From Chaetoderma sp. LZ-2023a (lineage: Eukaryota; Mollusca; Caudofoveata; Chaetodermatida; Chaetodermatidae): a DNA stretch of 64,000 nucleotides. Within the stretch, counting starts at the first letter, position 1. Every line of letters starts with the position of its first letter. A model generated the notes under the pieces. The model did no database searches, was not told where the DNA came from, and saw only the letters and a list, made by a program, of their open reading frames with translations. The stretch is from positions 70,283,786-70,347,785 of the forward strand of contig CM067366.1 in assembly GCA_034401795.1 (NCBI GenBank). The letters are read 5' to 3'. The position numbers and the translations under genes were made by a program. Of the stretch, positions 1,955 through 63,325 are shown in pieces.

Positions 1955-2241
1955 ACTATGGCAGCAATAGCGGCCAGTCAAATTAGTTTCAAAATATTCA
2001 ACACAAATGTTTATTAAATAGTGAAGACATACAATTCATACAACATGCGTTTAAGACGGAATAAATCGAGTCATTCCTGCAGTAATCGATTGACGCCAGC
2101 CTACACATCATGTAGTTGATAAAGATGTCATATGATTTATGGATAAGCTGGATTTCTTCATTGATTATGACTCCAGCCTACACGTGACCTAGTTGATTAT
2201 GACGTCATATGATTGACTAAGAAACTGGACTCCTCGGTTAT
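1955..2241 (+). repeat. P1 MITE-like element, copy 1 (5' truncated)
   Basis: Begins in the right arm of the P1 palindrome (CAGTCAAATTAGTTTC) and runs through the usual right half, including TGACGTCA near 2199, to the characteristic terminus GAAACTGGACTCCTC. The GC-box half is missing. It is interrupted at 2241 by the small MITE described next. Confidence 0.75.
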
Positions 2242-2438
2242 CAGGGGGCGGATCCAGTAGGTGGGCGGGGGGGGGGGGGGTGTTGGGGGGGGGGGCACCC
2301 AAAATTTCAAGGGAGTTAGCTCTTGAAAATTGGCTCATTCCGCCACCAGCAGGTAGGTAAAAAAAAATCGACAGCCCTGCCCGGGGGGGGGGGGGGTAGG
2401 GGCACGTGCCCTAGAGTGCCCCCTTTGATCCGCCACTG
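2242..2438. mobile_element. Small non-autonomous DNA transposon (MITE), hAT-like termini
   Basis: 197 bp. The left end CAGGGGGCGGATCCAG and the right end TTTGATCCGCCACTG are imperfect terminal inverted repeats. GTTAT lies directly outside both ends (2237-2241 and 2439-2443), compatible with a target duplication. The interior is G-run rich with no real coding sequence. Termini beginning CAGGGGCGGATC are ones I associate with hAT-type MITEs, but hAT usually duplicates 8 bp, so the superfamily call is tentative. It sits in the tail of P1 copy 1 and is younger than that copy. Confidence 0.65.
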
Positions 2439-2854
2439 GTTATTGATGGGACGGTATTTCTTTGAATGTATGCACATACTCCTTATCCAGACGTTTAATA
2501 TATGCCAATCTCGAGTTATCTTCACAATTATTTACCTGTCCTTGGCCGAATCACGCGTGTAATTTCTAATTATTTGCACTTCCCATTGAACATAATAGAT
2601 TAGCCAGATAACTATGCGTGTCATAGCTTAAGAAAAATGGCCAAATATTTACAATAAGAAATTTATCTTTGTATCTGAGTGCCTCTTTCTTAAACAAAGG
2701 ATAATTTAACAATGAAAAGAATAAACAATCAACAGCGACAACGATTTGTTTAAATGTTTGTGAAGATGCGATAAATTATCAATTTTATTAATTTTAATTT
2801 CGTGAAGTCGAGAAGCAAATTCCTGAGATTGTCTAAAACGTTGGTTGACAACAT

Positions 2855-3335
2855 AACCCATGTGCATAATGACAGGTACACCGATGTGCACGGTGACAGG
2901 CACAGTTAACATGACGATAGAACCGATGTGCATAGTGACAGGCACAGTTAACATGACAACAGCACCGACGTGAATAGTGACATGCACAGTTAACATGACA
3001 ACAGAACAGACGACAGGTGACAGGTAGTGTTAACATGACAATAGACCCGATGTGAATAGAGACAGGCACATTTAATATGACAATAGACCAGATGTACATA
3101 GTGACAGGCACAGTTAACATGACAACATACCTGATGTTCATAGTGACAGGCACAGTTAACATGACAACATACCTGATGTTCATAGTGACAGGCACAGGTA
3201 ACATGACAACATAACCGATGTACATAGTGACAGGCACAGTTAATATGACAACGGTACCCATGTGCATAGAGACAGGCACAGTTAACATGGCAACAGAAGC
3301 GATGTGCATAGTGACCGTCACCGTTAACATCAACA
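2855..3335. repeat. 42-bp minisatellite, ~11 copies
   Basis: The core GTGACAGGCACAGTTAACAT recurs at 2893, 2935, 2977 and so on to 3311, a spacing of 42 bp. Because 42 is divisible by three, the minus strand stays open as a 14-residue repeat. The repeats diverge freely and there is no flanking gene structure, so I treat the open frame as incidental. Confidence 0.9.
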
Positions 3336-3410
3336 TCACATTAAGATTGAAGGACAAATACAGTACACTCCAGAAATATCTTTGACTGTTTCCAATGGAA
3401 TAATAAAAAT

Positions 3411-3692
3411 TGGCGCCAGTCTATTAAATATTTTGAACATAATTGGATTGAACAATCCAATTATGTAAATAATATTCAACAGAAAATTTCCTAATTGCTT
3501 AATGCTCTGCTAGCTACCATGTTTCTGTTTTTGTTTTGGAAATATTTCAAGCTATTTCTGAACCATACTGGAGAACAAATACCTAAAGCATATGTGCGAA
3601 ATATAAGGTGACAAGTTGACACCATCGTGTTTGGTCATTTCCAGTGACGTAATTGATTATGACGTCAGGTACTTGAGTGACAGATCGGATCC
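3411..3692 (+). repeat. P1-related element with short perfect hairpin
   Basis: Starts with the palindrome-like stretch GGCGCCAGTCTATTAAATA and ends with the P1 subfamily-1 terminus TACTTGAGTGACAGATCGG followed by ATCC. 3437-3466 is a perfect 13-bp-arm hairpin. TGACGTCA lies at about 3659-3666. The middle has diverged and also contains P3-like sequence (3520-3570). Confidence 0.6.
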
Positions 3693-3929
3693 ATCCATTA
3701 GCAACTAAGCGCATTCGGTCTTAATACGAGTGCCCTGCTATAGATATACCTCTTGGGGGCAGCGGTATGGTATGTTTTGAAAGTGGGGTCTTCTGACCAC
3801 CTGTTTTGGAGAAACGCAATCTTTTTGTTCCAAGAGTTATGTGATTTCTCGCGCCTGGTTGACTGTGCATATTGGGTATTTAGTCGTTTGAGTTCTTCTT
3901 TCTTCTTTTCGTTCGCTAATCATACCGCC

Positions 3930-4115
3930 AGTCCTGTAAGTGACTATCGACATGATCATAAGCGTTAAGTGCGTGGATCCATGGTTTATTAGAGTGCCTG
4001 GAACCTCCGTCTTCAGCACTCGAGGTTTCTGTCAAGGTTATCTCACCCGTACCTCCTTTAGTCGCCTCTTACGACACGCAGAGGATACGGAAGGTGTCGT
4101 TTGAGTTATTCGTTT
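3930..4115 (+). repeat. Possible SINE-derived fragment
   Basis: The stretch AGTCGCCTCTTACGACACGC at 4062-4081 resembles, from memory, a conserved domain near the 3' part of some invertebrate SINEs. I see no clear Pol III promoter upstream, so this would be a truncated copy at best. Confidence 0.3.
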
Positions 4116-4500
4116 GATCTTCTTTATGAATTATAGGTAACGGGCTGTATTGTACCAGTTTTCCATGAGCTACTGTAGATCTATGTATGGTCAAAACACG
4201 TAATTTCGTTCAGTATCAATAAATTTCAAATTTCATTTTCTCTCAATTTCGTCTGTAGACTGTCCATGTATGATTACTGTATTCTAGTAGTAGCATCCTA
4301 CAGCTGCAATCAGTCCTTCTTCGCGTTTGCCCACTGTATCTGGATTTAAACAAGGTTTATTTTTAGTCTATGTGGGAGCACAATAACACATGTCTTATGA
4401 GCGTGTCTCCCACCTACGTACAAATATATTAGATTAAATAAATCAAGAGGCGAATAATAATATTACCAACTGTCACAACAGTAATAACAACAATAACATT
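4116..4500. other. Unassigned AT-rich spacer
   Basis: No open frame of note and no recognised repeat before the purine tract that follows. Confidence 0.4.
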
Positions 4501-4502
4501 AA

Positions 4503-4519
4503 TAATAATAAGAAGAAGA

Positions 4520-4551
<32 letters not shown>

Positions 4552-7255: not shown

Positions 7256-7890
7256 CACAGGACACCCAGTATGTGGGACACCCCATGTGTGGGAGACACA
7301 GTTGCAGGAGACCCAATACGCGGAACACCCAGTATGCAGGAGACCCAGTATGCGGGTCACCCAGCATGTGGAAGTCCCAGAATGCGGGAGAACCAGTATG
7401 CGGGGAACCCAGTATGCTGGAGAACCAGTATGCAGGAGACCCAGTGTGCAGGAGACCCAGTATGCGAGAGACCCACTATGCGGCAGACCCAGTATGCAGG
7501 AGGACCAGTATGTGGGACACCTAGTATGCAGGACACCCAGTATGCGGGAGACCCAGTATGCATGACAGCCAGTATGCGGGAGACCCAGTATGCAGGAGAC
7601 GCAGTATGTGTGAGACCAATTATGCGGGACACCCAGTATGCGAGACACCCAGTATGCAGGAGACCCAGTATGTGGGATATACAGCATGTGGGACACACAA
7701 TATGCGGGACACCCAGTATGCGGGACACCCAGTATACGGGAGACCCAGTATGCGGAACACCCAGTATGCGATAGACCCAATATCCGGGAGACCAAGTATG
7801 TAGGAGAGCCAGTATGCGGGAGACCCAGTATGCGGGACACACAGTATGCGGGACACCCCGTATGCGGGAGACCCAGTATACGGAAGATAC
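7256..7890. repeat. 16-bp minisatellite, array 1 (~39 copies)
   Basis: Tandem GGGAGACCCAGTATGC and close variants. The 16-bp unit has no stop in any frame, so three units make one 16-residue repeat and the plus strand stays open in all three frames. The minus strand is open as well. Simultaneous openness in all frames shows this is satellite DNA and not a gene. Confidence 0.95.
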
Positions 7891-8364
7891 TGTATGTGGA
7901 GACGAGCGTACACTCTCAGATGTACGGACAATCTCAGATGTACGTGCTACCGTTTTTCACCTCAAATTTGACTCTAAATCAGTTTTCCTGGACCATTTCA
8001 CTATACTCTTTTCGTTTAAAATTAATCACAAAATGTCGAGTGCAAATGTTTAGAATATTTATTTGGCATAGCAAGATGTGCTACGTGGTTACATCTGTTG
8101 TTTAAATGACAGAGACAGACAGAGAGAACAGCTTGTTAAACAGTTGATTCATGCGCGGCTCTTAGGCACTTGAAAGGAAAGAAGCAGGAAGCTGTCTTCT
8201 TGTAGCCGCATGAATTATGCTCCCAAGCACCTGTCCTTGGGGCTGTCTGACTTAAGTAATTTATTCAAAACCATTTGTTTTACAATCAACTCTAGATTTA
8301 CCAGTAAAGCCCACAGATAATGTCTCTGGTAAAACATGTCGAATATGACCAACTTTATGCGGTG
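7891..8364. other. Spacer between minisatellite and P1 copy
   Basis: Contains small GACAGACAGA-type repeats near 8108-8130 and otherwise nothing I recognise. Confidence 0.4.
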
Positions 8365-8690
8365 GGATCCGGTTCGAGATATGCCCCGCCCATTTCTGGC
8401 TAAGCTCTGCCCACGCTCTTACGCCTGTTGGGATTAAGTTATATGATTTGAATCCTGAATTCCCAGGATCCTAATTTCAAGGTAGTTATGTAGGTAAGCT
8501 GTTGAATGACAGCAACGGCGCCCAGTCGAATTAATTTCAAAATATTTAACGGACTGTTTATTAAATTGTAAATTCATCAAAAACATACCGTTGGTAAACT
8601 TGGCGGACCTTTCGAGCTTCACGACGGAGTTATGATACATCATGATGATATTTTATTATGGCGTTATATACTCGAGTGACAAATCGGCCT
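8365..8690 (+). repeat. P1 element, subfamily 1
   Basis: Starts at GGATCC (8365) with the GC-end ATGCCCCGCCCATTTC and GCTAAGCTCTGCCCACG, passes a reduced palindrome (8505-8560) and ends GAGTGACAAATCGG. The CRE sites are decayed in this copy. It lies between the two minisatellite arrays. Confidence 0.8.
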
Positions 8691-8700
8691 CTATTAGTTA

Positions 8701-9316
8701 GGTAGACAGATGGTCTCTCAATCCAGGTGCTGGCTACATAAGACAGGAGACCCAGTATACCTGACACCCAGTATGCGGGAGACTCAGCATGCGGGAGACC
8801 CAGTATGCAGGAGGCCCAGTATGCGGGACACCTAGTATGCATAACACCCAGTATACGGGAGACCCAGTATGCGGGAGACCCAGTATGTGTGAGACAAATT
8901 ATGCGGGACAACCAGTATGCGAGACACTCAGTATGCGGGACACCCAGTATGCGAGACACTCAGTATGCGAGACACTCAGTATGCGAGACACTCAGTATGC
9001 GAGACACTCAGTATGCGAGACACTCAGTATGCGAGACACTCAGTATGCGAGACACTCAGTATGCGAGACACTCAGTATGCGAGACACTCAGTATGCATGA
9101 CACCCAGTATACGGGAGATCCAGTATGCGGGAGACCCAGTATGTGTGAGACAAATTATGCGGGACACCCAGTATGCGAGACACTCAGTATGCGAGACACT
9201 CAGTATGCGAGACACTCAGTATGCGAGACACTCAGTATGCGAGACACTCAGTATGCAGGAGACCCAGTATGTGGTAGACAGATGGTCTCACAGTCCATGT
9301 GCTGACTACATAAGAG
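8701..9316. repeat. 16-bp minisatellite, array 2, with flanking direct repeats
   Basis: Same unit family as array 1, here with a homogenised GAGACACTCAGTATGC variant repeated about nine times in a row from about 8950. A segment of about 100 bp is itself duplicated (about 8840-8945 and 9090-9190). The array is bracketed by ~45-bp direct repeats starting GGTAGACAGATGGTCTC at 8701 and 9272. Confidence 0.92.
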
Positions 9317-18443: not shown

Positions 18444-18839
18444 TCCTTTCCATTTTTGGCTATGCCCCGCCCAGCACTAGCTAAGCTCCACCCACACCTC
18501 GCTGTGTTGGGATTGATTGATGACCAAATGCGCTAGCTATCAATTTCCTGAAAACTATACAGGGAAGCTGTTGAATATTTTGTAACTAATTTGACAGGTT
18601 GCTGTTGCTGCCTATGGCAGCAACAGCGCCCAGTCAAATTAGTTTCAAAATATTCAACAGAATATTGATTAAATAGTACAAGTAAACAATTTGTACAACG
18701 ACGCAGAGACCGTCTTCAAATATACGTTCGTGTACTTATCGACGTCATTCATGACGTCATTCATTATGATATCATTGTACACATCGCGCAGTTCATTATG
18801 ACGTCATATGATGGGTGGGTACTCTGGAAAGGTGAATTG
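18444..18839 (+). repeat. P1 element, complete copy
   Basis: Near-complete P1, about 396 bp: terminus CCTTTCC, GC-end CTATGCCCCGCCC and TAAGCTCCACCCAC, 89-bp palindrome at 18570-18658 centred on GCTGCCTATGGCAGC, then three CRE-type sites (about 18758-18808) and terminus ACTCTGGAAAGGTGAATT. The asymmetric order GC-end / palindrome / CRE-end defines the plus orientation used for all copies here. Confidence 0.88.
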
Positions 18840-18952: not shown

Positions 18953-19341
18953 AATGGACCTTTCATGTCTTAGCTATTCCCCGCCGATCTCTAGCTAGGC
19001 TCCACCCACGCGTTTGGGATCGATTGATCCCTGGACACCCTGGCTACCAATTTCCAGAAAACTATACGGGTAAGTTGTTGATTATTTTGAAACTAATTTG
19101 ACTCGGTGCTGTTGTTGAATACGGCTCAGTCAAGTTTGTTTCAAAATATTCAGCATCATGTGTAATAAATAGTAAAAAAACATACAATTCTTACAACAAT
19201 GGTTAGTCCGTCACCAATTATGCGTTCTTGACGAACTTATCTACGCCATTCATGACGTTACGATAATTATGACGTCATTATACACTTCAGGTGGTTGATT
19301 ATGACGTCATATGATGGATGGACTACCGGGAAAGGTCCATT
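18953..19341 (+). repeat. P1 element with perfect 12-bp terminal inverted repeats
   Basis: 389 bp. Left end AATGGACCTTTC (18953-18964) is the exact reverse complement of the right end GAAAGGTCCATT (19330-19341). Inside: GC-end, an eroded palindrome (about 19075-19155), and TGACGTCA sites near 19269 and 19302. This copy gives the clearest view of the ends. Confidence 0.88.
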
Positions 19342-19470: not shown

Positions 19471-19846
19471 AATGAGCATTTCCAATTTATCTATCCATCA
19501 TATCATAAACAACTACGCGACGCATAGAATGACATTATAATCAGTTACAGCATGCATGAGCCGATTTAGTCCATTTTAAAAGCTTAGTCGTCTGCCACAT
19601 TGCACGAATTGTATGTCTGTACGATTTAATAAACATTATGGCCAATATTTTGAAACTAATTTGACTGCCATAGGCAGCAATACACCCAGTCAAATTAGTT
19701 TCAAAATATTCAACAGCTTACCTGTATACTTTCCTGGAACTTGATAGTCAGGAACTTCAGGGATCGATCGATCCCAACACGGGCGAAGTGTGGGTGGAAC
19801 TTAGCTAGAGATGGGCGGGACATGGCTAAAACTGGAAACGTCCATT
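19471..19846 (-). repeat. P1 element, complete copy, reverse orientation
   Basis: Mirror order of the previous copies: weak CRE half (19471-19640), palindrome around 19636-19712 centred on TGCCATAGGCA, then the GC-end ATGGGCGGGACATGGC and terminus GGAAACGTCCATTG. With the two copies upstream this makes a local cluster, the third in inverted orientation. Confidence 0.85.
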
Positions 19847-20294: not shown

Positions 20295-20815
20295 TAATTT
20301 CAAAATATTCAACAAGACATAGATAGATGATTTATTGCAAAATCCAGCATAAGGATAGGGCAATACTCGTACAACCGTGGAAAGAAGCACGATATATAAA
20401 AGACTCGGCCTTATATAAATAAGTAAACACTACTTAATTAAATATATACATATTATACAAAGCAATCCACAACCGGCTTGACTACTGTAAAAGATTGATT
20501 CAATTCTAGCTATGCCCATCATATTTGCGGCTAAGCTCCGCTCACGTTCTGCGAGTGTTGGGGTCGTCGTCGCTGAATATTTTGAAACTAACTTGACTGG
20601 ACGCCATTGCTGCCTACAGCGGCAATAGCGCCCAGTAAGACTAGCTTCAAAATACCCAACAGAATGTTTATTAAGTAGTAAATCCATTCGATCAGCACAC
20701 TTGACGGACTTTTAAATGTTTATAATTGAGTTAGATACGTGATTCATTATCCATTTTGATTGTGATGTACATGTGCCGTAATTAATTATGAAGTGATTTT
20801 GGTGACTGATTGGGT
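20295..20815 (+). repeat. P1 fragments, one partial and one near-complete
   Basis: A palindrome-arm fragment (20295-20322, TTTCAAAATATTCAACAAG) is followed after ~180 bp by a near-complete copy (about 20500-20815) with a degenerate GC-end, a palindrome at about 20572-20655 and a weak CRE half. Confidence 0.65.
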
Positions 20816-21330
20816 CTCTCCAGTAGAGGTATTCATGTACAGCAGTTAAACTTATAAATCTGACGATGAGGTGGGGAACATTACCTTAAGGTATTTCGTT
20901 TCTCCATAATGACATTGACAAATTTTATAATCATTGTAGATATGTCAGAAGAGCCACGATTGCGTGGCATTAAAAAAATAAATTCATGGTGTTAATTTAA
21001 AGAATCAAACTTAGGGCAGCTAGAGGATTCGGAAAATAATGAATGCCTATCATCTTGAAGGTTAGGGCATTATAAGTGTCTCTCATCTTCTACTTTATTT
21101 AGATTGCAAAGATTACAGAGCAGACAGTTATTACATCATGAAGAATGCCGTGTATCTGCGCCTACATGACGTCACAGAAGTCACACGATAGTGTAGAGTA
21201 GAGGCAGAAATAGACGCTCCCACAATGCAATCAACGTTAACGCGGTGTTCACATGCCCCTTGTCGTGATTTAAATAAAGAAACGTGTTTCAGAGTGAATC
21301 TATGTGCTATAATCTATCGGTAACATATGA

Positions 21331-28975: not shown

Positions 28976-29239
28976 AATGCTCAAGCCCTGGAGTGTGGGC
29001 GTTTCAAAGTCTCATATCAGGGACGCTTTTGTGAAAAATCTAATATTCTGCAAAACGTGATTGTCATGAAATGCAAAATTCAAACTTGTTAGGCCTATCT
29101 TGGTTGATTTTCTAATATTTTAATATTCCGTAAAATTCGAAATGAATTTGATATCCTATCATTCATCTATCTGGAAATGTCGCAGAATGAAGATGTGCTA
29201 GACAATACAGCTCATAATACAAATGTAAATCAAATATCT

Positions 29240-29655
29240 TACGTCATAATCTAATACGTAACATGTTACGTGACGTCACAATCACAATGGCGCATAGCTC
29301 CGTCATGCAAGTCGAAACGTCCTTCAAGTGTACTAATTGTAGGCATATGTCTTTGAAGGATTTGCAGTTTAATAAACAATCTGCTGAATATTCTGAAACT
29401 AATATCACTAGGATATACTGTTGCCATAGACACCAACAGTCAGACGGGCAAATTAGTTTCAAAATAGTCAACAAATTTCCTATATGGTTACTTTGAAATT
29501 GGGATTCTGGCAATTCAGATTTCAAAGTATATAAATTGATTCCAACACACGTGAAATGGTGGGCGGAGCTTAGCTAGAAATGGGTGGGGCATAGCTAGAT
29601 ATGGGTGGGGCATAGCTAGATATGGGCGGGGCATAGCTAGATCCTCCATTGATTT
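29240..29655 (-). repeat. P1 element with fourfold GC-box amplification
   Basis: CRE half with GTGACGTCAC (about 29270), an eroded palindrome (29380-29470), then the GC-end in which a ~21-bp unit containing GGGTGGGGCATAGCTAGA is repeated about four times (29567-29643). Confidence 0.8.
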
Positions 29656-29741
29656 ATGTTGTCTAACTTGCAGCAGACAAGTAGATGAATGAATACATAT
29701 TTATGATAATAACAGCATAATTGAGTTAGCTAATTAATACG

Positions 29742-30095
29742 CCCAATTTCCTAGTCAATCATATGAGGTCATAATCAACGTCATACGTAGGCTGACTTCA
29801 TAACCAATTACGATATGAATGACGCGATTTAGTCCGTCATAAACGCTTAATGATCGGTCAAGTTGTACGGATTGTATGTCTAATAAACATTCAGTTGAAT
29901 AGTTTGAATCTAATTTGACTGGGCGCTGTTGCTGCCATAGGCATCAGTTTCAAAATATTCAACAATTTACCTGTATAGTTTTCTGGAAATTGAGATTCAG
30001 AGAGTGCAGGGCGGATTCATCACAACACATGCAGAGCGTGGGTGGAGCTTAGTTAGAGATGGACGGGGCGTAGCAAAAGCTGGACTCATCCATTC
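29742..30095 (-). repeat. P1 element
   Basis: Weak CRE half, palindrome partly deleted on the right (about 29900-29970; GGGCGCTGTTGCTGCCATAG retained), GC-end GTGGGTGGAGCTTAG and GGACGGGGCG. Confidence 0.78.
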
Positions 30096-30259: not shown

Positions 30260-31020
30260 CTCTCCCTCCGACTTCTATCACCAAGCTACCAATATTCACC
30301 TGGAAGTCCCATTCAACAACATCGTATGTGTCAATAGAGACAAAGTCTATTTACTGTGAAAGTTCATTATTTGACAATACAAACATGTTTTATGCTATAA
30401 TTGGATTACTCCTAAAGGTCAAATTGTATGCGATTAGCGGTAGAACGGAGAGAATGGAGATTTAGTGAAAGAGGGTGGGAATGACAGATCTAGTACAAAA
30501 GCTGTGATAGAATGGGCTCATCGCGAGTACGCAATCCCTGCATTGTGTGCTTTGTCAAGCCACTTACCGCGTTAACTCTGACCACAGGCGTGACCGACCA
30601 AATGTTAAAGTTGTTAGCGCGTTGCTAACCCATTTTAGATACGTCATCATTTTCTGATGTTAAAGTGTCGGCCCTATAATCGAAAGCATATACACATTTC
30701 TTTTCAAATATCAGGATTTTAAATGCGTTTGGAGAAAAAAAGGCTGTTTGGGTCTGTGTATCTTTCCCCAGACCCCTTGGTTCTATTTATGTTGCTTTGT
30801 ACAGGAGGCGCGTAACAGATGGGTATTCCCCTAAGCTGGGCTTTCACAATATCGATTTTAATTCTGAAGAAAAAGAATGGCAAAAAAATCCGAAAAAAAA
30901 TTTGTGTTTTCTCGTTTTCCCTTGAACTGGAGTCGTGTTTGTATTACAAATGGTGCTGTTCAAACCTTGTGCTAGTAACAGCATTTACCTTGGCAATGCT
31001 AACGAAAGCTACAGCATGCT
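30260..31020. other. Unassigned spacer
   Basis: AT-rich. Open frames of 70-74 codons at 30241-30465 and 30819-31031 show no recognisable domain. Confidence 0.4.
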
Positions 31021-31026
31021 ACAATG

Positions 31027-31325
31027 GATAGATCCTATCTGTCACTCAATTATATGACGTCATAATCAATTCCGTCACATGTAGGCTAATGCCACAATCA
31101 AAATGCGTAATGAATCAGCTATCTGGCTCCGTCGTGAACATTTAATAGTACATCAGATGTACGAATTGTAAGTTTTTACAGTTTAATAAACGGTATGTTG
31201 AATATTTTGAAATTTAATTTGACTGGACGTTGTTGATGCCTATAGCCTTTGGGAATCTAGGCTCAAAACAGAAATGGGGGGACTTAGCTAGAAATGGGTG
31301 GAGCTTAGCTAGAAATGGGCGGTGA
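31027..31325 (-). repeat. P1 element, subfamily 1
   Basis: Starts GATCCTATCTGTCACTCAA with ATGACGTCATAATC (31047-31060); the left palindrome arm TTGAATATTTTGAAATTTAA is present and the right arm is deleted; then GC-end motifs AGAAATGGGTGGAGCTTAGC and GAAATGGGCGG. Confidence 0.78.
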
Positions 31326-32509: not shown

Positions 32510-32960
32510 GGTCCATTTCTAGCTATACTCCGCGTATTTCTAGCTATACTCCGCGCATTTCTAGCTATGCCGCGCCCATTTCTAGCTATACTCCGCCCCT
32601 TTTTAGCTTCGCTCCGCCCACTCTTTACTCGATTTGATACTTTGACACCTTACCTTTCCGGAATCTAAATACAAAGGTAAATATATGTATAAGCTGTTGA
32701 ATATTTTGAGACTAATATGTCTTTGGGCTATTGGTTCCTTTGGCAACAACAACTCCCAGTCAAATTAATTTCAAAGTATTCAAAAGTATTTTTTATTAAA
32801 TTGTGAAGTCATGAAAGACATACGATTCGTACACTTTGTGATCGATTCTTCAATTTTCATGACGGAGTCTAAGTCATTATGATTTTGATGTCAGCTATCT
32901 AGTGACATAATTGATTATGACGTCAGATACTTGAGTCGAGTGACAGGCCACATATCGGAA
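32510..32960 (+). repeat. P1 element with amplified GC-box end
   Basis: The GC-end unit TTTCTAGCTATACTCCGC is repeated about five times (32516-32600). A palindrome follows (32697-32782, loosely matched), then the CRE half with CATGACGG, TGATGTCAGC and TATGACGTCAGATACTTGAG. Confidence 0.82.
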
Positions 32961-35307: not shown

Positions 35308-35617
35308 TCATACGCTTACCTGGTCCGATTGGCAATTTAAATGCTGTCTGAAATGACATATTTTTTGGTATTCTAAGAACATGTCTTAGCTGTTACTCTA
35401 CCCTCTGTGAGAGTCGAACTGTGCTGCGCAGTATGTAAAATGGGGAGTTTGACGTTTATCCAGCAGCGCGCGATTTGTGGTCATTCGCAAGTGTTTCAGG
35501 CATCGATGTATTGCTCTCGGTCGGATACTTAGCAACGGTCGGGAAATACAAAATTTATGCGCGACGTGGAAGGCTGACCAGACCACAAATCACAAGTGTC
35601 GCCAATAGTACCCACCA

Positions 35618-35735
35618 TTTAATATTTAATGTTTAATATTTTGGGGCTAATATGGCTGGACGCAGATGCTGCCTTAGGTAGCTACAGCGTCCGGTCAAAT
35701 TAGTTTCCCAAAATATTTTAACAGCTTACCTTTAC
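35618..35735 (-). repeat. P1 palindrome fragment
   Basis: TTTAATATTTTGGGGCTAAT, then a centre GCTGCCTTAGGTAGC, then CGGTCAAATTAGTTTCCC: both arms of the P1 core with little flank. Confidence 0.7.
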
Positions 35736-35754
35736 CGTGAAGAGACTCGCAACT

Positions 35755-36235: not shown

Positions 36236-36955
36236 ATCTGACTGGTTACTCAAATATCTGACATCAGGATCAAATACGTCACTTGTTAGCTCACGTCACA
36301 GTCAAAATTACATATGTCCGTCACGAGCGTGGAAATAGCACGTCACGAAGTGGAAATAGCACGTCACGAAGTGCAAATTGCACGACACGAAAGTGACTGA
36401 ATTGTAAGTCTTTGAATAAGTTACAAATAAATAAAAAGAAATTTTAAATATTTTGAAAATAACAGGTTAGGTCTACCTGTATAATTCACATTTCCAGAGT
36501 ACCCACCCATCATATGACGTCATAATGAACTGCGTAATGTGTACAATGACATCATAATGAATGACGTCATGAATGACGTCGATAAGCACGTCACGAACGC
36601 ATATTTGAAGACGGCCTATGCGTTGTTGTACAAATTGTTTGCTTTTTGTTTGCTTTTACTATTTAATAAATATTATGTTGAATATTTTGAAACTAATTTG
36701 ACTGGGCGCTGTTGCAGCCATAGGCAGCAACAGCACCCAGTCAAATTAGTCACAAAATATTCAATAGCTTCCCTGCATAGTTTTCAGGAAATTGATAGCT
36801 AGAGCATTTGGGGATCTGCCAATTCCAACACGGCGAGGTGTGGGTGGAGCTTAGCTAGTGATGGGTGGGGCATAGCTAAAAATGGAAAGGTCCATTGCCT
36901 TGAAATTTAGATTTCGGTGACAAAGCTTCAACCCGATTCCAACACGTGTAACAGT
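36236..36955 (-). repeat. P1 subfamily-1 copy interrupted by a second P1
   Basis: The outer copy runs 36236-36486: start GGATCTGACTGGTTACTC, a 21-bp tandem GTCACGAAGTGGAAATAGCAC repeated ~3.5 times at 36316-36385, and a collapsed core. It resumes at 36894 with TTGAAATTTAGATTTC and CCGATTCCAACACGTG. The inner copy (next feature) splits it. Confidence 0.72.
36487..36893 (-). repeat. P1 element, complete copy nested in another P1
   Basis: 407 bp: terminus CACATTTCCAGAGTACCC, CRE sites at about 36511-36580 (ATGACGTCATAATG, GAATGACGTCATG), 85-bp palindrome at 36678-36762, GC-end GTGGGTGGAGCTTAG and GATGGGTGGGGCATAGC, terminus GGAAAGGTCC. ATT is present on both sides (36484-36486 and 36894-36896), a probable 3-bp target duplication. 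Confidence 0.88.
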
Positions 36956-37972: not shown

Positions 37973-37974
37973 CA

Positions 37975-45748: not shown

Positions 45749-45955
45749 TAATTTCTAGCCATGCCCGCCCATTTCTAACTAAGCTCCGCCCACTGTTTAC
45801 GCGTTTGCATTGCTTTAACCCGTTGGACTCGGAATTTCCACTTCTCAGAATCCCAATTCAAATGTAATTATACAGGTAAGCTGTTAAAGTCAAATTAGTT
45901 TCAAAATGCTCAACAAAATGTGTGTTTAATTGTAAATTAGAAAACGGTATATAAT
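45749..45955 (+). repeat. P1 element, 3' truncated
   Basis: GC-end CATGCCCGCCCATTTC and AAGCTCCGCCCACTG, deleted palindrome (GTTAAAGTCAAATTAGTTTC), start of the CRE half only. Confidence 0.75.
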
Positions 45956-45961
45956 GGAGAA

Positions 45962-46315
45962 ATACAGTTTTAGCTATGTCCCGCCCATCTTTAGCTAAGG
46001 TCCACCCACACTTCGCCCGTGTTTTGGATCGATGAACTCCCTGATCTACAGACAAGCGGTTGAGTATTTTGAAGCTAATTTGACTGGATAGGCCCTACTC
46101 TTGCTGCTTGTCAAGTTAGTTTCAAAATGTTCAACAGTATGTTTATTAAATAGTAAAGATATACAATTCGTACAACAACGCTTAGTCCGTCATCAACTAA
46201 GCGGTCGTGACGAACTTAGCCACGTCATTCCTGACGTAATTGATTATGACATCATCCTACACGTCGCGAAGTTGATTATGATGTCATATAACAGACTGAG
46301 AAACTGGAATCCTCC
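45962..46315 (+). repeat. P1 element, near complete
   Basis: Follows the previous copy head-to-tail. GC-end CTATGTCCCGCCCATC and AAGGTCCACCCACAC, short palindrome (46050-46140), CRE half with decayed sites (TGACGTAA, TGACATCA, TGATGTCA), terminus GAAACTGGAATCCTCC. Confidence 0.8.
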
Positions 46316-46369
46316 ACTAAGCTGCTTACTGTCGGACGTTTGTCTCTTTCGTTTCGGATCTACATCATT

Positions 46370-48770: not shown

Positions 48771-48839
48771 AACACCTGAGTAAACAACCTTAGGTAGATA
48801 TGCAATCAGAAACTTGTGTAATTCGATAATGGTCCACTG

Positions 48840-49380: not shown

Positions 49381-51520
49381 CTAACATATCAACGAGTCCG
49401 GTACGTGAAGAAATATAATAATTTGAAATTAACCTTATTTTCATTTCACAATTGTCGACATGTTGCGCAAAGTGCGATTAAGGACACTTCATAACCACCA
49501 ACCCAAGGGCACACTTGGACACTCCATAACCGCTACCGCAGGGCACACTCGGGTTCCTGACACTCACCAATATCAACCAAATGCCCAATCGAATGATTCC
49601 ATTCAATTCAGTATAGTTTGCAAACAGTTTTCTATTACGCCACATAGTTAAAATTAGGCTGAATTTATTCAGTACAATTTTGACTGAAACGTGATATTGC
49701 CCTACCCAGTCAAATATGTCAGTCAAATCATATTTAGATAATAGTTAGCGGGATGGAGGAAGTTTAAGGTGAATTTAGGCTGAGAGAAAAAGTGTCCTCG
49801 CTTCCAAGCGCCTGGGGACATATGTGTGACACTTACGCAGACCTAGCCAACACAATGAAAGCAAGCTTAATTCTGCACCGAAATTCCAGTTAGTATGCGA
49901 GTCTATTTAGCGATCTCTTGAAAAGGACAAGAGCTGTTTATAAATAAACGCTCTTCTAAAGAATGCACTCGCTTAATTGACCTTCAGAAAATAAATTGAG
50001 TGTCGGAAATTTCTGCCATTTCCACATACCATGAACAGACGACAGGATCACCCGAGGCGAGGTATGACCGTGTACCTTGGCCCGAGGGCGGAGCTTAGGC
50101 AAATATTCGGGCTGACCCCTTTCAGGGCTGCATCCGAGGTATATTCAACAGACGACAATTAATTACGCCGTATTAAATTCTCGGCTGATTTCTTTGAAAA
50201 TAATTTGACTGAAAATTGTTTGAACTATTACCAGCAATAAATTCCAATCAAATTATGTTCCGAATATTAAAGTCTACCCTGTTAAAGCTGTTTTTTAAAA
50301 CATATTTTCGGATCTTAGCTGTAAAAGGGCTAACCATTTCTTCCCGCAGGCACCACTTATCGGTTCTGTCACCTGCCCTCTTTATAAATCATCATGCCAT
50401 TCCGTAATGCATGCTGTGATTAGGAACAGCAACGCGAACATTATTTCCCCTTGTTCGATGAGTTGTTTATAATGATTTATATTATTGCAACAAATTATGC
50501 CCTGTAGGAGTGTTCACACTTCTACATATGTCAGATTTCAATAAATAAATGGAAATATTTACAAAGACAAGCCTCTCTGATTGGTGGATTGCAATTCTTG
50601 TTTTTTAGTATGATTGAGTTTCAGTATTTGGTTTGCTTAAATATATAACAAATATGGATATTATTTCTAGATAACATCTTTGAGGAAATTACTTCAAATT
50701 AGCGCCACAAAATAGTGTAATGTCTATATATACGGATATATTTAAAAACTGAGCCCTGCTTAGAAAGAGGAATTATAAAACGCAATGTCACCGGCGCCTT
50801 CAACAACGACTGTCACCATCCTAAATCTTATTTTCACTTAATTTAGGTCGAGTGATATTGTGAGTTAACCTACAGACACAAGAAAGACACATTGCAAAAG
50901 CAGACGAGATTTAGCTCAAAGCAGCAGACGACCATCGCTAGGATCAGCCGCCACTTCAAGGTGATTCCAGCAGGTAAGACAAACACGCAATAATTACACG
51001 TCTTAGGATTAACCCTTTCACGGACATATCCATGAAAAAGTAAATTCCTTGCGATATAAACGCACCGGTTTCCATCCAAATTAATTTCAATATATTGAAT
51101 ACAGTCTTCCTGTATGATTCCGATATAATTAATCTGTGAAAGGGTTATTAACTTCAATAACTTCTCTCGTTATCTTGACGACATAAGAACATGGATATTC
51201 GTAATTAGATTGACTATGAAAGCGACATCAGCTGCTTCTATTACGCCTATGCATGGATACTGGTTTCGGCTGTAATTGGAATACGCCTAATTACGGCGAG
51301 TCATAGCGTGCCGAGTGTAATGTGTTATTCGGAGCTGCGTTTGACATGATATGCACTATATATACTCATCAATTCTAACAGATTCTCATTATGTAGCTTG
51401 CTATAAGTAGCCTTCTTTCTTGTAGGCCTAATATGTTGGTGCTAAGTAAGAAACTTAAGGATGCTAAAAGTCGCAGATGCGTCGGCTGCACATGGCAGTA
51501 GACATTTTCAATCAACTGAC
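49381..51520. other. Unassigned region with divergent palindromes
   Basis: Two P1-like divergent palindromes (49655-49735; 50175-50265) and a short related arm at 51065-51112 (CCAAATTAATTTCAATATAT). The remaining sequence is unassigned; no open frame is supported. Confidence 0.4.
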
Positions 51521-51524: not shown

Positions 51525-52075
51525 TGCAGGCCAAAAGAAGAGTATTTTTGAAGATTTATCTGTGAGATTGGAATAATTGGCTTGGTCGGCTTGGTCATCG
51601 AACCAGTAATTCACCTTTCCAGAGTATCCATCCATCATCTGACCTCGTATGACGTCATGATCAGCTCAGCGCGTGCATGATAACATCACAATCATTACGT
51701 CACAAAAGGGTTACTTATAGACCGTCATCAAATCTCAAATAGTCCGACACGTTGTATGAATTGTATGTCTTTGTAATTCTTTGCTATTTAATGAACATGC
51801 TGTTGAATATTTTGAAACTAATTGGACTTGGCGCTATTGCTGCCTTAGGCGGCAACATCACCCAGTCAAATTAGTTTCAAAATATTCAACAGCTTACCAG
51901 TGTAGTTTTTTGGAAATTGATAGTCATGGTGTTCAGAAATCAATCGATCCCAACACGAGCGAGGTGTGGGTGGAGCTTAGCTAGACATGGGCGGGGCATA
52001 GGTCCATTCCACTGTTAAATCTTCAAAAATAGCATTCTCTTGGCCTGCAAATGAACGTTCCTCAAGACCACTACT
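51525..52075 (+). repeat. P2 hairpin element split by a P1 insertion
   Basis: P2 left arm 51525-51611 (GCAGGCCAAAAGAAGAGTAT through ATCGAACCAGTAATT). P2 resumes at 52006 (ATTCCACTGTTAAATC through TCTTGGCCTGCAAATGAACG, then CTCAAGACCACT). Removing 51612-52005 restores a continuous P2 hairpin, so P1 inserted after P2. Confidence 0.85.
51612..52005 (-). repeat. P1 element, complete copy nested in P2
   Basis: 394 bp: terminus CACCTTTCCAGAGT, CRE site TATGACGTCATGATC, 89-bp palindrome at 51802-51890 with centre GCTGCCTTAGGCGGC, GC-end GTGGGTGGAGCTTAGC and ATGGGCGGGGCATAGG, end GGTCC. ATT flanks both sides (51609-51611 and 52006-52008). Confidence 0.9.
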
Positions 52076-52689: not shown

Positions 52690-53490
52690 TTAAGAATGGT
52701 TTGGAAACACCATTCTAAAATTTTAAAATATTAGTTATTTAATTATTATCAAGCAATAGGAAAGAATACGAACTGATTCTACTATCCCAAATACTCAATA
52801 TCTAAGACCTCACCGTCCCGCTCGTGGTAAGATTACTGGGAATTTATCTATTTAACCTACATGCTCCTGTGACAGGACATCAAAGGTGTTGTATTTCTTT
52901 GATTGTGTTGTATTTCTTGGATTTGAATGGCATACACATATAACGTTATTATTAGATAATTGGATGAGATATAATACATGTGAACGTTTGGAGCAGATAA
53001 TTTACAGCGATAGTCTCTAGGTTAAGGTAATCGATATTAGGCCAAGGTAGAGGTGTGTTGTGACTGTACATGGATAAAGCATATAGGCTATAGGGTAAAT
53101 TCCAGAACCCTCTCCCTAGACAAGGAATACTTGCTTTTTAAGAACCTGATGGAGAACAATAATTAAATTGATTTTACGTCTTCAAAACGATATACGACTG
53201 AACGAGGTTGTTGGTTGTTGTTATAGCGCGTTGATTATTCTCTCTATACCATGCATTTCCCTCGCCTCCAGGGATGTATTCTTTTGCAAACTTTGCTGTT
53301 ATCTACACCTACACGAACTTAGATTGGCTGACCATCAGCATGTTGTCCGCAAATTCTTTCCCTAACATTATTCATAGATACACATGTATATACAATCTGA
53401 GATGTTATTGACATTTAATATAGATAGTACAATACGGATCTCTTCCCGTAGCAGGCAACAAAGCCACATTTGCCATATACGTCATTGCGA
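52690..53490. other. Unassigned spacer
   Basis: No recognised element apart from a short GGTTTGGAAACACC hairpin near 52700. Confidence 0.4.
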
Positions 53491-53493
53491 TGA

Positions 53494-53711
53494 TGACGTC
53501 AGTTAACTAGTGGCATAATTGATGATTATGACGTCAGCTAACTAGTGACATAACTGATGGTTATGACGCCATCTAACTAGTGACATAATTGATGGTTATG
53601 ACGTCAGCTATCTAGTCCCATAACTGGTGATTATGACGTCAGCTATCTAGTGACATAATTGGTGATTATGACGTCAGCTATCTAGTGACGTAATTGATAA
53701 TTATGACGTAA
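53494..53711 (+). repeat. 35-bp tandem array of CRE-like palindromes (7 sites)
   Basis: TGACGTCA or a one-base variant begins at 53494, 53529, 53564, 53599, 53634, 53669 and 53704, exactly every 35 bp. Five are perfect; 53564 is TGACGCCA and 53704 TGACGTAA. A secondary TGACATAA/TGACGTAA half-site sits between most. The flanks (CTTGAGTGACAAATCG at the right) show it is an amplified P1 subfamily-1 CRE-end. Confidence 0.95.
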
Positions 53712-55070
53712 CTTGAGTGACAAATCGAGTCCCAGTATTGGCCATGTAAGTGAGGGAGATGTGACCAAAGATCACCGATAGACATCTTACTGATCATCTA
53801 CCATGACAGCCGCATGAATGACCAACAGCACTACTATCAGAACCAAGTCACTGAAATTATTATATCAATGAGACTGGCCGTCAACACAATAAACACTAAT
53901 AATACTACAACACCCAGCAATGGCTGTTAGCGCAGTGACCATGTACAGTGCTACTATAAAGCCCACCAACACTACATGGCTGAGAGTGATCAACACAATG
54001 AACACAATGGCCATCAATAGCAACAGCCGCGTGAATAACCATGTGGCCATGTACAGTACACATATCAGAACCAACAGCACTACTACCAGAATCAGAAGCA
54101 AGATTAAGAAAGCGAACGATATCAAGCACATCATCATTATCATGGCTATCAGGATTATACCACATCATGGTCCTCAATGTTACCCGTTCTGGAGACAGCA
54201 ACGGCAGCAGAACCAGCCACTATAATAATCAATCGGTCCATCACTATGAATCGCGTTGAACATTACCAGCATGACAAACAGCAAACCATTGGCCTAGTTT
54301 GAATGTAAACAACAGGAGCCGATTAATTCTCCTCACATTGTGGCCTAGAGCTAATGAATACTAGGAAAAGATATATAGATACACGCTGTCGATATTATTA
54401 GCATCGCCACACTATATCTATTGATTATGAGGTACGGGTATCATGGTATGGTAGACAAGACATTTGGGACGTGTCCATCGAGAGTAATTAATAATGAGCG
54501 CTGGAAGCGACACTACGGACAACGATAGGCCAAACCCCCTGATGCATTCGCATTACTAGATTTGAATTAGAACGTCATATAACAAATGTACAAAGCAACC
54601 ACGGATGTCACTGCACCTCTTCACATTCAAACACACAATTCAATCAATATATTCAACAACAAGATCCGATAGAGGTGTCAATTGGCTCATTATGCCTTTC
54701 ATCTATGCGAAAAACAATGTATTGTTGGTAAATCTTCAGGCAATATGATATATCATCGTGCGATATCTGTCACTTCGGACTCTCGGTAGATCTGTTATTC
54801 TCTACATGCCCCCACGTGCCCTCAAATCAGGGAATAGACCTTGAACATACGAGATTGGAATTGATCCGTTACCAACACCCTCTGTTCCACTATAAAATGG
54901 TTGTCCTGTAAGAAGCGATATCAGAAGACCATTTCTCCCAATAGAACCAGAGTATAGGAGGCCATAAATGATATATGTTATAACAGATGGTCTCCATTAA
55001 GATCCCAGTTCTTTTTATTCGACCATTTTAAATTCCTGGCCACTAGCGACTCATGGCGGAGCTGGCCAAA
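53712..55070. other. Unassigned region
   Basis: 53865-54259 is open in two plus-strand and two minus-strand frames at once and contains repeated CAACAGCACTACTA and ACCATGTACAGTGC words, suggesting a degenerate repeat and not a gene. No other element recognised. Confidence 0.35.
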
Positions 55071-58650: not shown

Positions 58651-59785
58651 GGAAGTAAATAACTAGGCAATTTGTTATGACAGTGGAGATAAAATATATG
58701 CGTTTAATTATATAATGCGCAATAATATTATACATGCCTAGGGCTTACATATCAATAATCATACGTTCATATTAACGCTTAGAACCGCGAGTTCGCAGAA
58801 TCTCGGTTTCAACGTAGCTGTAGAGTAACACTGCTGCATATTTCAAACAGATCCGACAGGAACCTGTTTCTGCCATAAACAGCAACAGTTCCCAGTCAGG
58901 CCAGCTCGAAAATATCCATCGGAATATAGTGGATGAGTTTCGTGTTTGCCATTTGGTTTGGGGGGTTTATTATTCTTGGCTTGCACTAGAGTTAGAAAAT
59001 GTTAGTGGAGCCATTGGCCAAGTTTAATGAGCCTCATGTTGGACGAAAATTGGGTGCTTCAGAATGATGGTCAATGGGCTAGTCCGATAAGAACTTATCA
59101 TTTGCCATATTCAGTGGGTAGTACATGTTTGTAATATTTTAATTTTCGAGAGCTATAAGTGTAATTTGCATAATTTTAATAGGCCTGATGCATTTGGATA
59201 GCATGTGGAGGGAAATAAGTAGGCAATTTGTTTTGACAGTGGGGGTAGAATATATGCAATTAATTACACAAATAAATATATACATACTTAGGGCCTACAT
59301 AACAATATTCATACACTCATATTAACCCTTCGAACTCTGAGTTTCCAGAATCTCAATTTCAACGCTACTATACAGGAAAACTGTTGAATATTTTGAATCA
59401 AATTTTACAGGAACTTGTTGCTACAATGCCGCCATAAGCACCCCCACACCACACCACACCCCGCCCCCCAGTCGGGTTAGCCTGAAAATACCCAACATAA
59501 TATCGGGAATGATTTTGGTGTGTTGACCTTTCGGGCTGATAGGGTTAATATTATTGGCTCGCACTCGAGTTGCATAAAGTTACTGGAGGCATTGGCCCAG
59601 TTCAGTGAATATCATGTTGGGCGAACTTTAGATAATTTAAGGTGATAAACAGTAAGCGAGCCCGATAATCACTTATTAGTTGACAATCATATTCATTAGA
59701 GCATGCATATTTGCCATATTTTCATTGCAGAAAATTTTAAAAATTTGCATAATTTTATGTAGACGGGCCTATTGCATACTTTGAA
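58651..59785. repeat. Tandem segmental duplication (~550-580-bp unit)
   Basis: Copy A about 58651-59200 and copy B about 59205-59785. Shared landmarks: AGGCAATTTGTTATGACAGT at 58675 versus AGGCAATTTGTTTTGACAGT at 59221, GCTTGCACTAGAGTT versus GCTCGCACTCGAGTT, ATTTGCATAATTTTA at 59164 versus 59742. Each carries a decayed P1 core (58855-58925; 59390-59500). More diverged than the 22-24 kb duplication. Confidence 0.85.
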
Positions 59786-60895: not shown

Positions 60896-60897
60896 CT

Positions 60898-61067
60898 TGT
60901 CTACGCCATGAATCACGAGTCATTGAGGGAGGGAACAACATGACGTCATGAAACACGGGTTCATTGAAGGAAGGAACAGCATGACGTCATGAGTCACGGG
61001 GCCATTGAAGGCGGGAACAACATGACGTCATGAGTCACGTGGCCATTGAAGGCGGAAACAACATGAT
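60898..61067 (+). repeat. 41-bp tandem array with perfect CRE palindromes
   Basis: CATGACGTCATG starts at 60939, 60980 and 61021, exactly 41 bp apart, with a decayed first unit at ~60898 and a truncated fourth at 61062. The rest of each unit contains GAGTCACGGGGCCATTGAAG. The unit is not the 35-bp unit of the array at 53.5 kb. Confidence 0.93.
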
Positions 61068-61254: not shown

Positions 61255-61450
61255 TGCGACGACATCTAGTTAGTTTCAAAAATCTTCAGTAGAATATTTA
61301 GTGAATATTAAATTCATCAATGACATACAATTCAGGTGCGTACAGTCAGACCTGTGCCACTTTCGAACCTAAATGCCATTTGATTGTGACGTCAGCTAAC
61401 AAATAATGTATTTTAGTTATGACGTCAGATGCTTGAGTGCCAGATCACCC
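61255..61450 (+). repeat. P1 CRE-half
   Basis: TAGTTAGTTTCAAAAATCTT (right palindrome arm), then GTGACGTCAGCTAAC, TATGACGTCAGATGCTTGAG and terminus TGCCAGATC. Confidence 0.72.
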
Positions 61451-61930
61451 CATTAGTTATTATGGACATGTGGTTACTTTAATACAAGCGACTTGTTATG
61501 CTGGTCATTTTGTAGTCAAACTATATGCCCCACACACGTGCGTTAAAGAACCACCGCATTTTGTCAACAAAGGCAAGTGGTCTATTATACAGGCCTGGCA
61601 GTATCTATGCTATCTGTTATCACGCAGCTCATATACGCCCTATGGATTAACCTCGGGTTTGATTAATGGACTTCTGCCAGCGTTTCAGACCAAATATAGT
61701 TTTACGTACATATGATGGGGGCTGTAATGTGACATGAGGACACGCCACATCTATGTCGCTCTCTATCAAGGCAGTTGTTATCGCGTTAGTCGCAATCTAA
61801 TATCGATGGCACATTGCCATGATCGTCACTCGAGCATTAGATGAGATTGCTGCAGCGGAACCACAGACACTGAAGATCTTTGGCTCGTCAGATAGCCAGC
61901 GTAAGAGTCAGGCAGTGAGAGTGTCCCGCC
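61451..61930. other. Unassigned spacer
   Basis: A 92-codon frame begins in the P1 end (61437-61715) and shows no recognisable domain. Confidence 0.35.
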
Positions 61931-61934
61931 GCGC

Positions 61935-61970
61935 CCCCCCCCCCCCCCCTCCCCCCTCCCCCCCCCCCCA
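61935..61970. repeat. Poly-C tract
   Basis: C-runs interrupted only by T. Confidence 0.92.
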
Positions 61971-62024
61971 ACTATCTTAGAGAGATTTTGTTCTGCGTCC
62001 TGCTCTCTTCTCCTGATTCCTACA

Positions 62025-62222
62025 CTACAGCTCAGAAATAAGCTATAATGAAAACAAAACAGAACGCACTGTTGCCTATTTTGAACATACTTGGATTGAA
62101 GCACATTGCTACCCAAGGCATCAATGTCTACAAACTACAGAATATTTCTTGCTAACTAAGATTCTATTGGTTCAGTTCTGGAAACACGATACTGCATTTC
62201 TGAGCTGTACCGCACGATGATG
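62025..62222. repeat. P3-related foldback element
   Basis: ACAGCTCAGAAATAAGC (62028) faces GCATTTCTGAGCTGTAC (62191-62207) across ~150 bp. Confidence 0.65.
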
Positions 62223-62407
62223 GCTCTGGTTTTTACTGCTGTGTCGAAACGGAAACACTTATTGATTGAGTCTCCATTCGTGTTACTGCGGGGATGATAA
62301 TAGCCGGAATGCGGTCGCTGTCTGCCTAGACGATATCGTCTTCCTACCCAGGCCTTATGGCGGGCTATTTGGAATATTAGGGCCATTTCCTACGTGGTTT
62401 ATACCGC

Positions 62408-62500
62408 TACCATCATCATCATCACCACCACCATCATCATCATCATCATCATCATCATCATTAGCGGCAGCAACAGCATCAGCATCAGCAGCAGCATTGC
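62408..62500. repeat. (CAT)n/(CAG)n microsatellite
   Basis: CAT/ATC triplets grading into AGC/ATC triplets. Confidence 0.93.
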
Positions 62501-63155
62501 TCGAGCTCAGATGACCGCGCAAGCTGAATGCTGTTCTGGTGAATATAAAACTAAACATCTAGACTCTTCGTGGAGTGTCCTCTTGCACGATTGCTGTGTC
62601 TGGAAGATAGGCGTTCTCCAGCCTCCGTGTTAGGATCTTCGGACCCTTAGCTGTTGATTGTGTCATTCAGAAGCACACTTATTTGGCCAATCACGCCAGG
62701 CATCTGTCTGTGTTTTGCGTCTATATTCTCACCACGCTTGCGCAGACGACCCCTTGATTTCCGATCCCACTTCCGTGACATTATTTTGTACTTAGTGCTA
62801 AATATCAGACTCTGTTCCTGCTGAATCAAAATCTTGCATCGATGTAGAAGTTCATATAGCATATTTATTTATCGGGGCTCATTTTGCACACGACAGTGAT
62901 TCTATCTGTTCTCGTCCAGGCTAGCGACAGTTTGAAGACCACTGTTCTAGAACTGATTTCCAGATCGCGACCACCACAAAATGATTTCAAAAGACTGTTG
63001 GTCGCCTAATTTGAAGTGTGTGGAATCGTGAATGTGAAGGAACCATGCATAATCTGAATTTTATGCCGAGATATTAACAATACCCCCTCAATCACCGACT
63101 TATCATGATCATGGTCGCTCAAGGCAAAACTATAATGCTAGGTTTGAACGTAATT
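62501..63155. other. Unassigned spacer
   Basis: No recognised element. Confidence 0.4.
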
Positions 63156-63159
63156 CTAG

Positions 63160-63325
63160 GCACCCCGTCCCACTCCATTTCTACCTAAGCTACTCCCACC
63201 TTTTCATGTGGACTGGAATCGGTTTGAAACTAATTTGACTCGGGGCTGTTGCTGCAACAGCTCCCAGTCAAATTAGTTTCAAAATATTCATATGAATTTT
63301 TATTAAAATTGAAAAGACATTCACT
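63160..63325 (+). repeat. P1 element, short copy
   Basis: GC-end ACCCCGTCCCACTCC, TAAGCTACTCCCACC, compact palindrome (63223-63290, CGGGGCTGTTGCTGCAACAG as centre), TTTTTATTAAAATTG and truncation. Confidence 0.75.

Follow-up and report, generated by a model that had tools for sequence, protein, structure and literature searches.

P1, a highly abundant ISL2EU-type MITE family with a probably composite body in the mollusc Chaetoderma sp. LZ-2023a

Elements of the ISL2EU group (PHIS superfamily) are defined, in the available text of Han et al. 2015 (PMC4482050), by an AT target-site duplication (TSD) within A|AT|T, by terminal inverted repeats (TIRs) that start with GG, and by the pairing of a DDE/HTH/THAP transposase with a YqaJ protein. 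The same text gives 3,647 ISL2EU copies over its genomes, a count made by transposase homology in which miniature inverted-repeat transposable elements (MITEs) might be missed. The coral CMITEs form a second group of interest, with six TTAA/piggyBac-like families of approximately 100 bp and a common internal region that is, in the accessible sections of Wang et al. 2010 (PMC2872659), of unknown origin. Here, we report on P1, a family of palindromic repeats found in a stretch of 64,000 nucleotides (the window) from the mollusc Chaetoderma sp. LZ-2023a, located at 70.28-70.35 Mb on contig 8 of a 2.44-Gb assembly whose contigs 1-17 measure 73-278 Mb each. The results make it very probable that P1 is a very abundant and old MITE of the ISL2EU group with a composite body, which it shares with a second family, K1.

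Anatomy, target site and abundance of P1

Profiles of P1 and its subfamily P1b were made from copies in the window and in the rest of the genome, and a self-comparison of the window was run alongside. The P1 consensus has 404 positions, beginning with AAT-GGACCTTTCCAGTTTTAGC and closing with AAACTGGAAAGGTCC-ATT. Its ends read A[AT]GGACC...GGTCC[AT]T, and the consensus TIR, AATGGACCTTTCCAGTTT, opens with GG (GGACCTTTCCAGTTT) and extends at most 15 bp inside the AAT, within the 6-259 bp range of ISL2EU. At the GC end, CCCCGCCC is a GC box and CTCCACCC comes close to being one, and the left flank terminates in ACAGGTAAGCTG, presumably a splice-donor-like motif (CAG|GTAAGC). The core forms a palindrome of 87 nt, and a single uninterrupted hairpin takes in 97 nt of the consensus; to the right of the core lie a flank containing TTTATTAAATAGTAAAG and then one TACGTCA and three TGACGTCA, which form the end rich in cAMP response elements (CREs). 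The asymmetric plan proposed in an earlier note on the window (GC end, palindrome, CRE end) is thus seen in the consensus, together with the short TIRs and the putatively promoter-type motifs that it had listed. The literal motifs of that note fared unevenly as exact matches in the window: AAGCTCCGCCCAC was found three times, the core 20-mer six times, AATGGACCTTTC three times and TACTTGAGTGACAGATCGG once, but ATGCCCCGCCCATTTCTAGC not at all.

The two end types of the earlier note also exist, as two forms of TIR and CRE end, but they represent subfamilies with different TIR cores. P1 proper has the TIR AATGGACCTTTCC and a CRE end ...GATGGATAAACTGG, and P1b the TIR AATGGA(TG/GG)AATCC (core TGAAT/GGAAT) and a CRE end ...TACTTGAGTGACAGATTGG. 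The plan of P1b is that of P1, but with a CRE end ...TACTTGAGTGACAGATTGGATTCATCCATT, a longer stretch left of the hairpin and the opposite pattern in the GC end (CCCCACCC and CTCCGCCC). The window and 48 loci of the genome provided 51 near-complete copies, whose left/right TIR types were a/a in 24, b/b in 8, mixed b/a in 6 and unassignable on at least one side in 13. GGATCC has 14 sites; P1/P1b pieces contain 4 of these, and another 3 are found no more than 20 bp away from such a piece. Both ends can undergo tandem expansion, the GC end as a 21-bp GC-box unit (two arrays in Table 1, with a further GC-box expansion visible as repeated self-matches at locus L018, ~7990-8750) and the CRE end as a 35-bp unit (window 53489-53709). 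The higher identity of the core (0.90 versus 0.65-0.87 elsewhere, in 17 copies from the window and the genome samples described below) was dropped as a sign of selection, since the mixture of subfamilies confounds these values.

The ends of P1 were analyzed in 40 of the 51 copies, kept by a loose criterion (AATGG-like on the left; CATT/AATT-like on the right) that excluded the other 11. AAT and ATT were present at 92-98% per base while the adjoining TIR bases vary; this figure is biased upward by the AATGG-based choice of copies, and in a count made without such selection a perfect AAT precedes 4,110 of the 4,909 exact GC-end 24-mers of the genome (83.7%). The outer base was Y at -1 in 80% and R at +1 in 88% of the filtered copies (P ~2e-4 and 1e-6, respectively, versus 50%). 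No TSD beyond AAT/ATT was detected in these copies, the best position pairs showing at most 19% excess and no run.

Paralogous empty sites reveal the target. At the first site, the filled sequence GAACAT-AAT|P1|AAT-GGATT corresponds to GAACAT-AATT-GGATT in the paralog L049, which is 73% identical overall and identical at the junction, and to GAACAT-AACT-GGATT in the paralog L023. At a second, independent site, P1 lies within a local tandem array (L056) as TTTGCTC-AAT|P1|ATT-GTGACT, and the five intact units of the array contain AATT, ACTT, AATT, AATG and AATT between TTTGCTC and GTGACT. Because the empty sites hold a single AATT, P1 targets A|AT|T and duplicates 2 bp, AT, on insertion, as published for ISL2EU. 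P1 is, with its shared termini and AATT empty sites, a non-autonomous DNA transposon, as had been proposed, and more precisely an ISL2EU-type MITE of ~400 bp. Its mobility, earlier deduced from nesting, is now based on these empty sites. By eye, the copy at the second site lies just upstream of a YqaJ-coding stretch and is probably intronic.

A profile search detected 36 P1/P1b pieces in the window (more than twenty had been noticed before), totaling 7,288 bp or 11.4%; 12 of them (7 P1 and 5 P1b) reach both ends, no more than 40 profile positions separating the match from either one. Throughout the genome, the exact hairpin core 20-mer, which gives up to two counts per copy owing to the palindrome, was counted 147,279 times, and neither this word nor the GC-end 24-mer occurs in reversed form, the control used for word counts. 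In 20 stretches of 10 kb (200 kb), picked blind at round coordinates, 52 P1/P1b pieces made up 3.85% of the sequence. Since 6 of these 20 samples have no match to the P1 profile, copies occur in clumps, and their density in the window is high. Naive scaling yields ~630,000 pieces genome-wide, a rough figure to be read as of the order of 10^5 to 10^6. The best 40 genome places are 349-419 bp long and spread over many contigs, and they show 85-90% identity to the first P1 consensus; as none is higher, the family is old. Short, dispersed, of similar length, with TIRs and a high copy number, P1 has the characteristics of a MITE. A tandem duplication confined to this locus is ruled out by the genome-wide word counts and by the copies on many contigs, and the copies do share termini. 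An apparent strand clustering of core 20-mers (+ only beyond ~1.08 Mb of contig 1) was taken as a listing effect, the whole-genome counts per strand being near equal.

Candidate partners are encoded in the same genome, in which DDE_Tnp_4 (PF13359) gave 2,519 candidates, 150 of them scored, and YqaJ (PF09588) 67 matches. At least 13 pairs of the two are convergent and 1.2-1.9 kb apart, at least one is convergent and 3.3 kb apart, and at least two are divergent; in one element (C5), the transposase N-terminus is uninterrupted and matches THAP. These paired hits and the THAP match indicate that the ISL2EU gene set is present. An ISL2EU-group transposase would bind the GG-starting TIRs of P1, cut A|AT|T and leave the AT duplication. 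Upstream of two near-identical transposase genes (L053 and L055), the sequence matches the core region of P1 only. These two ISL2EU copies are 97-99.5% identical where aligned. On the upstream side of the transposase-coding part they differ by two segments, and one segment begins at a hairpin apex; a hairpin-associated deletion is possible. The YqaJ-side protein of C5 (L059 173-901) has a Cys/His stretch that by eye resembles a SWIM zinc finger, in a 242-aa piece with no Pfam match, and the ISL2EU stretch L057 has matches at seven or more further loci of the genome.

A hairpin body in common with TTAA-type elements

Some copies that resemble P1 in its middle part but not outside it belong to other families with their own ends. 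K1 (211 bp, TTAACCCTTTCACxGATAAATTCC...GGGATTTGTCGTTGAAAGGGTTAA) has consensus termini CCCTTTC and TTAA at both ends in the three copies fetched. TTAA was also found near both ends in 7 of 12 near-complete K1 copies in the examined loci (~5% expected), and it precedes 147 of the 245 exact K1 end 20-mers genome-wide. The best 40 of 5,943 K1 candidates, which may include P1 hairpins, each cover K1 over its full length or nearly so. K1 thus shows the TTAA at both ends and the CC[C/T]T termini of piggyBac-type MITEs. The other family, K2 (TTAACTGTCTGACTGCT...AGCAGTCAGACAGTTAA), is less numerous and is represented by five distinct copies, two of them with TTAA near both ends. The 20 genome samples contained 22 K1 and 8 K2 pieces.

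Positions 90-245 of P1 align with 19-174 of K1 with a score of 149 (best of 500 shuffles, 35). The K2 hairpin scores 90 against both P1 and K1 (shuffle maxima 28 and 32, respectively). Therefore, the hallmark palindrome of P1 is part of a body common to TTAA-type MITEs, and the P1-K1 and P1-K2 pairs have, as CMITEs do, an internal region common to families with different TIRs. The P1-K1 homology covers ~45 bp of left flank outside the hairpin, where none of 1,000 shuffles was as good. Judged from these alignments, P1 appears to be composite, with a GC-box end and a CRE end around a body of ~156 bp, made up of a ~45-bp left flank, the 87-nt hairpin and a short right flank; K1 has this body as well. 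One body is carried on two kinds of transposon end, ISL2EU-type in P1 and TTAA/piggyBac-like in K1. In the simplest history, an ISL2EU-type MITE would have received a K1-like MITE by insertion or recombination, and the resulting chimera would then have multiplied until it made up a few per cent of the genome. As the outer ends of K1 are not clear inside P1, nested insertion is not proven against other forms of chimerism. A bolder and rather doubtful proposal is that the hairpin body is a module spreading across unrelated transposition systems (ISL2EU-type AATT and at least two TTAA families) and raising the success of the ends attached to it, a hyperparasite of MITEs instead of filler; if so, it could work as a transposition enhancer or via single-stranded hairpins in excision or replication.

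Motif content and alternative explanations

In the window, the CRE word TGACGTCA has 27 sites, whereas base composition predicts 0.84, and P1/P1b pieces contain 22 of the 27. In the genome, it is found 398,896 times versus 41,418 for the reversed word, a 9.6-fold excess. In the 20 samples, only 7 of 23 sites are within P1/P1b and other repeats also carry CREs; P1 is therefore one CRE carrier among several. Outside P1, a 41-bp tandem repeat (window 60903-61066) has TGACGTCA in three units and is a further CRE-like carrier. The genome count of GATTATGACGTCA, 109,808, is an upper bound for P1, because only one of four sample sites lies in a profile match (a second is P1b-end-like by eye), and its use as a count of P1 was dropped. 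Speculatively, the two gene promoters of the progenitor, one on the transposase side and one on the YqaJ side, may have left relics in P1, namely its GC boxes, its CREs and the donor-like CAG|GTAAGC. The P1 family disseminates intact CRE and GC-box motifs and, thus, offers a testable source of candidate regulatory sites.

Several observations weigh against P1 being a composite MITE of ISL2EU type. The first filled site was aligned with four paralogs, of which L050 is gapped at the junction and L051 has AATT, but in poorly conserved surroundings. No autonomous element with the TIRs of P1 was found, so that the transposase-bearing relative envisaged in the earlier note did not appear; likewise, eight stretches of 0.55-0.9 kb around four ISL2EU gene pairs contained no P1-like element end, the termini of those elements not having been located. 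Regarding the body, the right flank beyond the hairpin gives no significant similarity when taken separately (equalled by 371 of 1,000 shuffles for P1 and by 68 of 1,000 for P1b). Of the outer ends of K1, the left shows a weak resemblance to P1b (equalled by 0.9% of shuffles) and the right shows none (30%), and P1 resembles neither (92% on the left, 74% on the right). Finally, a body-less copy (L009) tried as an ancestor is nearer to P1 than to P1b and has a junction without TTAA, so it resembles a deletion and probably is one.

If P1 were assigned to some other group of DNA transposons whose target resembles that of ISL2EU, such as Spy or a Harbinger-like group, AAT/ATT would be bases of the element, in agreement with the lack of anything duplicated outside AAT...ATT in the 40 filtered copies and with the insertion of Spy elements into AAATTT without TSD (available text of PMC4482050). 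We regard this assignment as very unlikely, since the empty sites keep one AATT, the four bases expected from A|AT|T plus an AT duplication, whereas AATATT would be required if an element had inserted between AAT and ATT in the manner of Spy. Spy itself, inserting between AAA and TTT with no duplication, is excluded by the duplicated AT, and a piggyBac-type MITE with TTAA duplication by the YAAT/ATTR flanks of P1. For the body, repeated gene conversion or template switching among neighboring palindromic MITEs, in place of one joining of whole bodies, is a tentative possibility of some weight. Hairpins are sites of rearrangement here, as in the segment of L053/L055 that begins at a hairpin apex, and TIR types are mixed in 6 of the 51 P1 copies. 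Nevertheless, hairpin exchange alone does not predict homology reaching ~45 bp into the left flank, and the best 40 K1 places align across the whole body, although they were chosen for exactly that. Domestication of P1, retained for promoter or enhancer action of its CREs and GC boxes or for a transcribed hairpin, seems highly improbable: the share of window CREs in P1/P1b and their genome-wide excess would fit it, but most sample CREs lie outside P1/P1b, other repeats carry CREs too, and the higher core identity is confounded by subfamilies. A composite MITE of ISL2EU type is the preferred reading.

Other features of the window and comparison with known systems

Table 1. Copies and fragments of P1, P1b and K1 in the window
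Feature	Position	Strand	Basis
P1, near-complete, left TIR degraded, 89% identity to copy at 36484	18445..18837	+	self-comparison, profile
P1, complete, both TIRs	18953..19341	+	profile, end alignment
P1, complete	19472..19845	-	profile, end alignment
P1, both ends; hairpin with internal deletion	29739..30093	-	profile
P1, complete	36484..36895	-	profile, end alignment
P1, both ends	45954..46316	+	profile, end alignment
P1, deletion adjoining left TIR	51609..52002	-	profile
P1b, both ends by profile	8360..8704	+	profile
P1b, both ends by profile	20483..20829	+	profile
P1b; 21-bp GC-box tandem array 29560-29642 lengthens GC end	29221..29613	-	profile, tandem repeats
P1b, both ends; without stretch from GC end to mid-hairpin	31020..31321	-	profile
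P1b; with 21-bp GC-box tandem array 32513-32627	32557..32954	+	profile, tandem repeats
P1 fragment, hairpin through CRE end; CRE end doubled	1950..2235	+	profile
P1 fragment, hairpin	63223..63325	+	profile
P1b fragment, CRE end (TGACGTCA...TACTTGAGTGACAGATCGG)	3622..3703	+	profile
P1b CRE end grown into 35-bp tandem array, five TGACGTCA	53459..53742	+	profile, tandem repeats
P1b fragment with CRE end	61268..61450	+	profile
K1 element, TTAA-type MITE with the body of P1	59318..59552	+	profile
K1, near-complete	58768..58969	+	profile
K1 fragment, hairpin	35583..35738	-	profile
K1-like element, weak match (39.9 bits)	50117..50334	-	profile

Other repeats accompany these copies. A direct duplication of ~1 kb with 79-81% identity (22396-23384 and 23489-24554) has a P1b fragment in each half. 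The palindromic repeat Q (AAATGTCCATTTGCAGACCAAGAG...) is present at 49185-49319, 56236-56370, 21593-21737, 24598-24735 and 33418-33524 and, by eye, in the ISL2EU stretch L057 (413-590); it was rejected as a relative of P1 or K1, with scores of 17 and 20 below shuffle maxima of 27 and 25, respectively. A non-LTR retrotransposon frame with RVT_1 and zf-RVT domains occupies 12131-14221 (-), and two frames upstream of it (15136-15678 and 16092-16943), with no Pfam match, may be its parts. The tandem arrays include a 67-bp repeat of ~16 units with 97% match (37967-39022), more uniform than most arrays of the window, two related 16-bp arrays ~0.9 kb apart whose repetition yields long open frames (7260-7887 and 8763-9271), and an inverted pair of ~50-bp arrays (47949-48237 and 48820-49082). 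ARAGORN detected no tRNA genes in the window.

In the literature searched, which left subscription journals, Repbase and Dfam outside its scope, there was no prior description of the P1 family or of a body shared between ISL2EU-type and TTAA-type elements. In a genome of 2.4 Gb, a single MITE family of a transposon group earlier counted in thousands of copies appears to account for several per cent of the sequence. The composite body of P1 touches on the open question of where the internal sequence of MITEs originates and whether it has any role in amplification; this genome offers a comparison of one body attached to different transposase ends.

The nearest described system to P1 is ISL2EU by mechanism and the coral CMITEs by the shared body. 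As in ISL2EU (available text of PMC4482050), P1 has the A|AT|T target, the AT duplication, TIRs starting with GG and conserved outer A and T, and the genome that harbors it pairs DDE and YqaJ genes. P1 differs in being a ~400-bp MITE and in its scaled 10^5 to 10^6 P1/P1b pieces in one genome, compared with the ISL2EU copies of that study, counted by transposase homology. K1 resembles piggyBac-type MITEs in its TTAA at both ends and CCCTTTC termini, whereas the ends of K2 (TTAACTGTCT...) do not fit CC[C/T]T. With the coral CMITEs, as far as the accessible sections of PMC2872659 describe them, P1, K1 and K2 have in common a conserved internal region with differing TIRs, short MITEs and tandem arrays, and K1 additionally the TTAA sites and CC[C/T]T ends. 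There, however, the body is common to TTAA families only, whereas here it joins TTAA-type and AATT-type elements.

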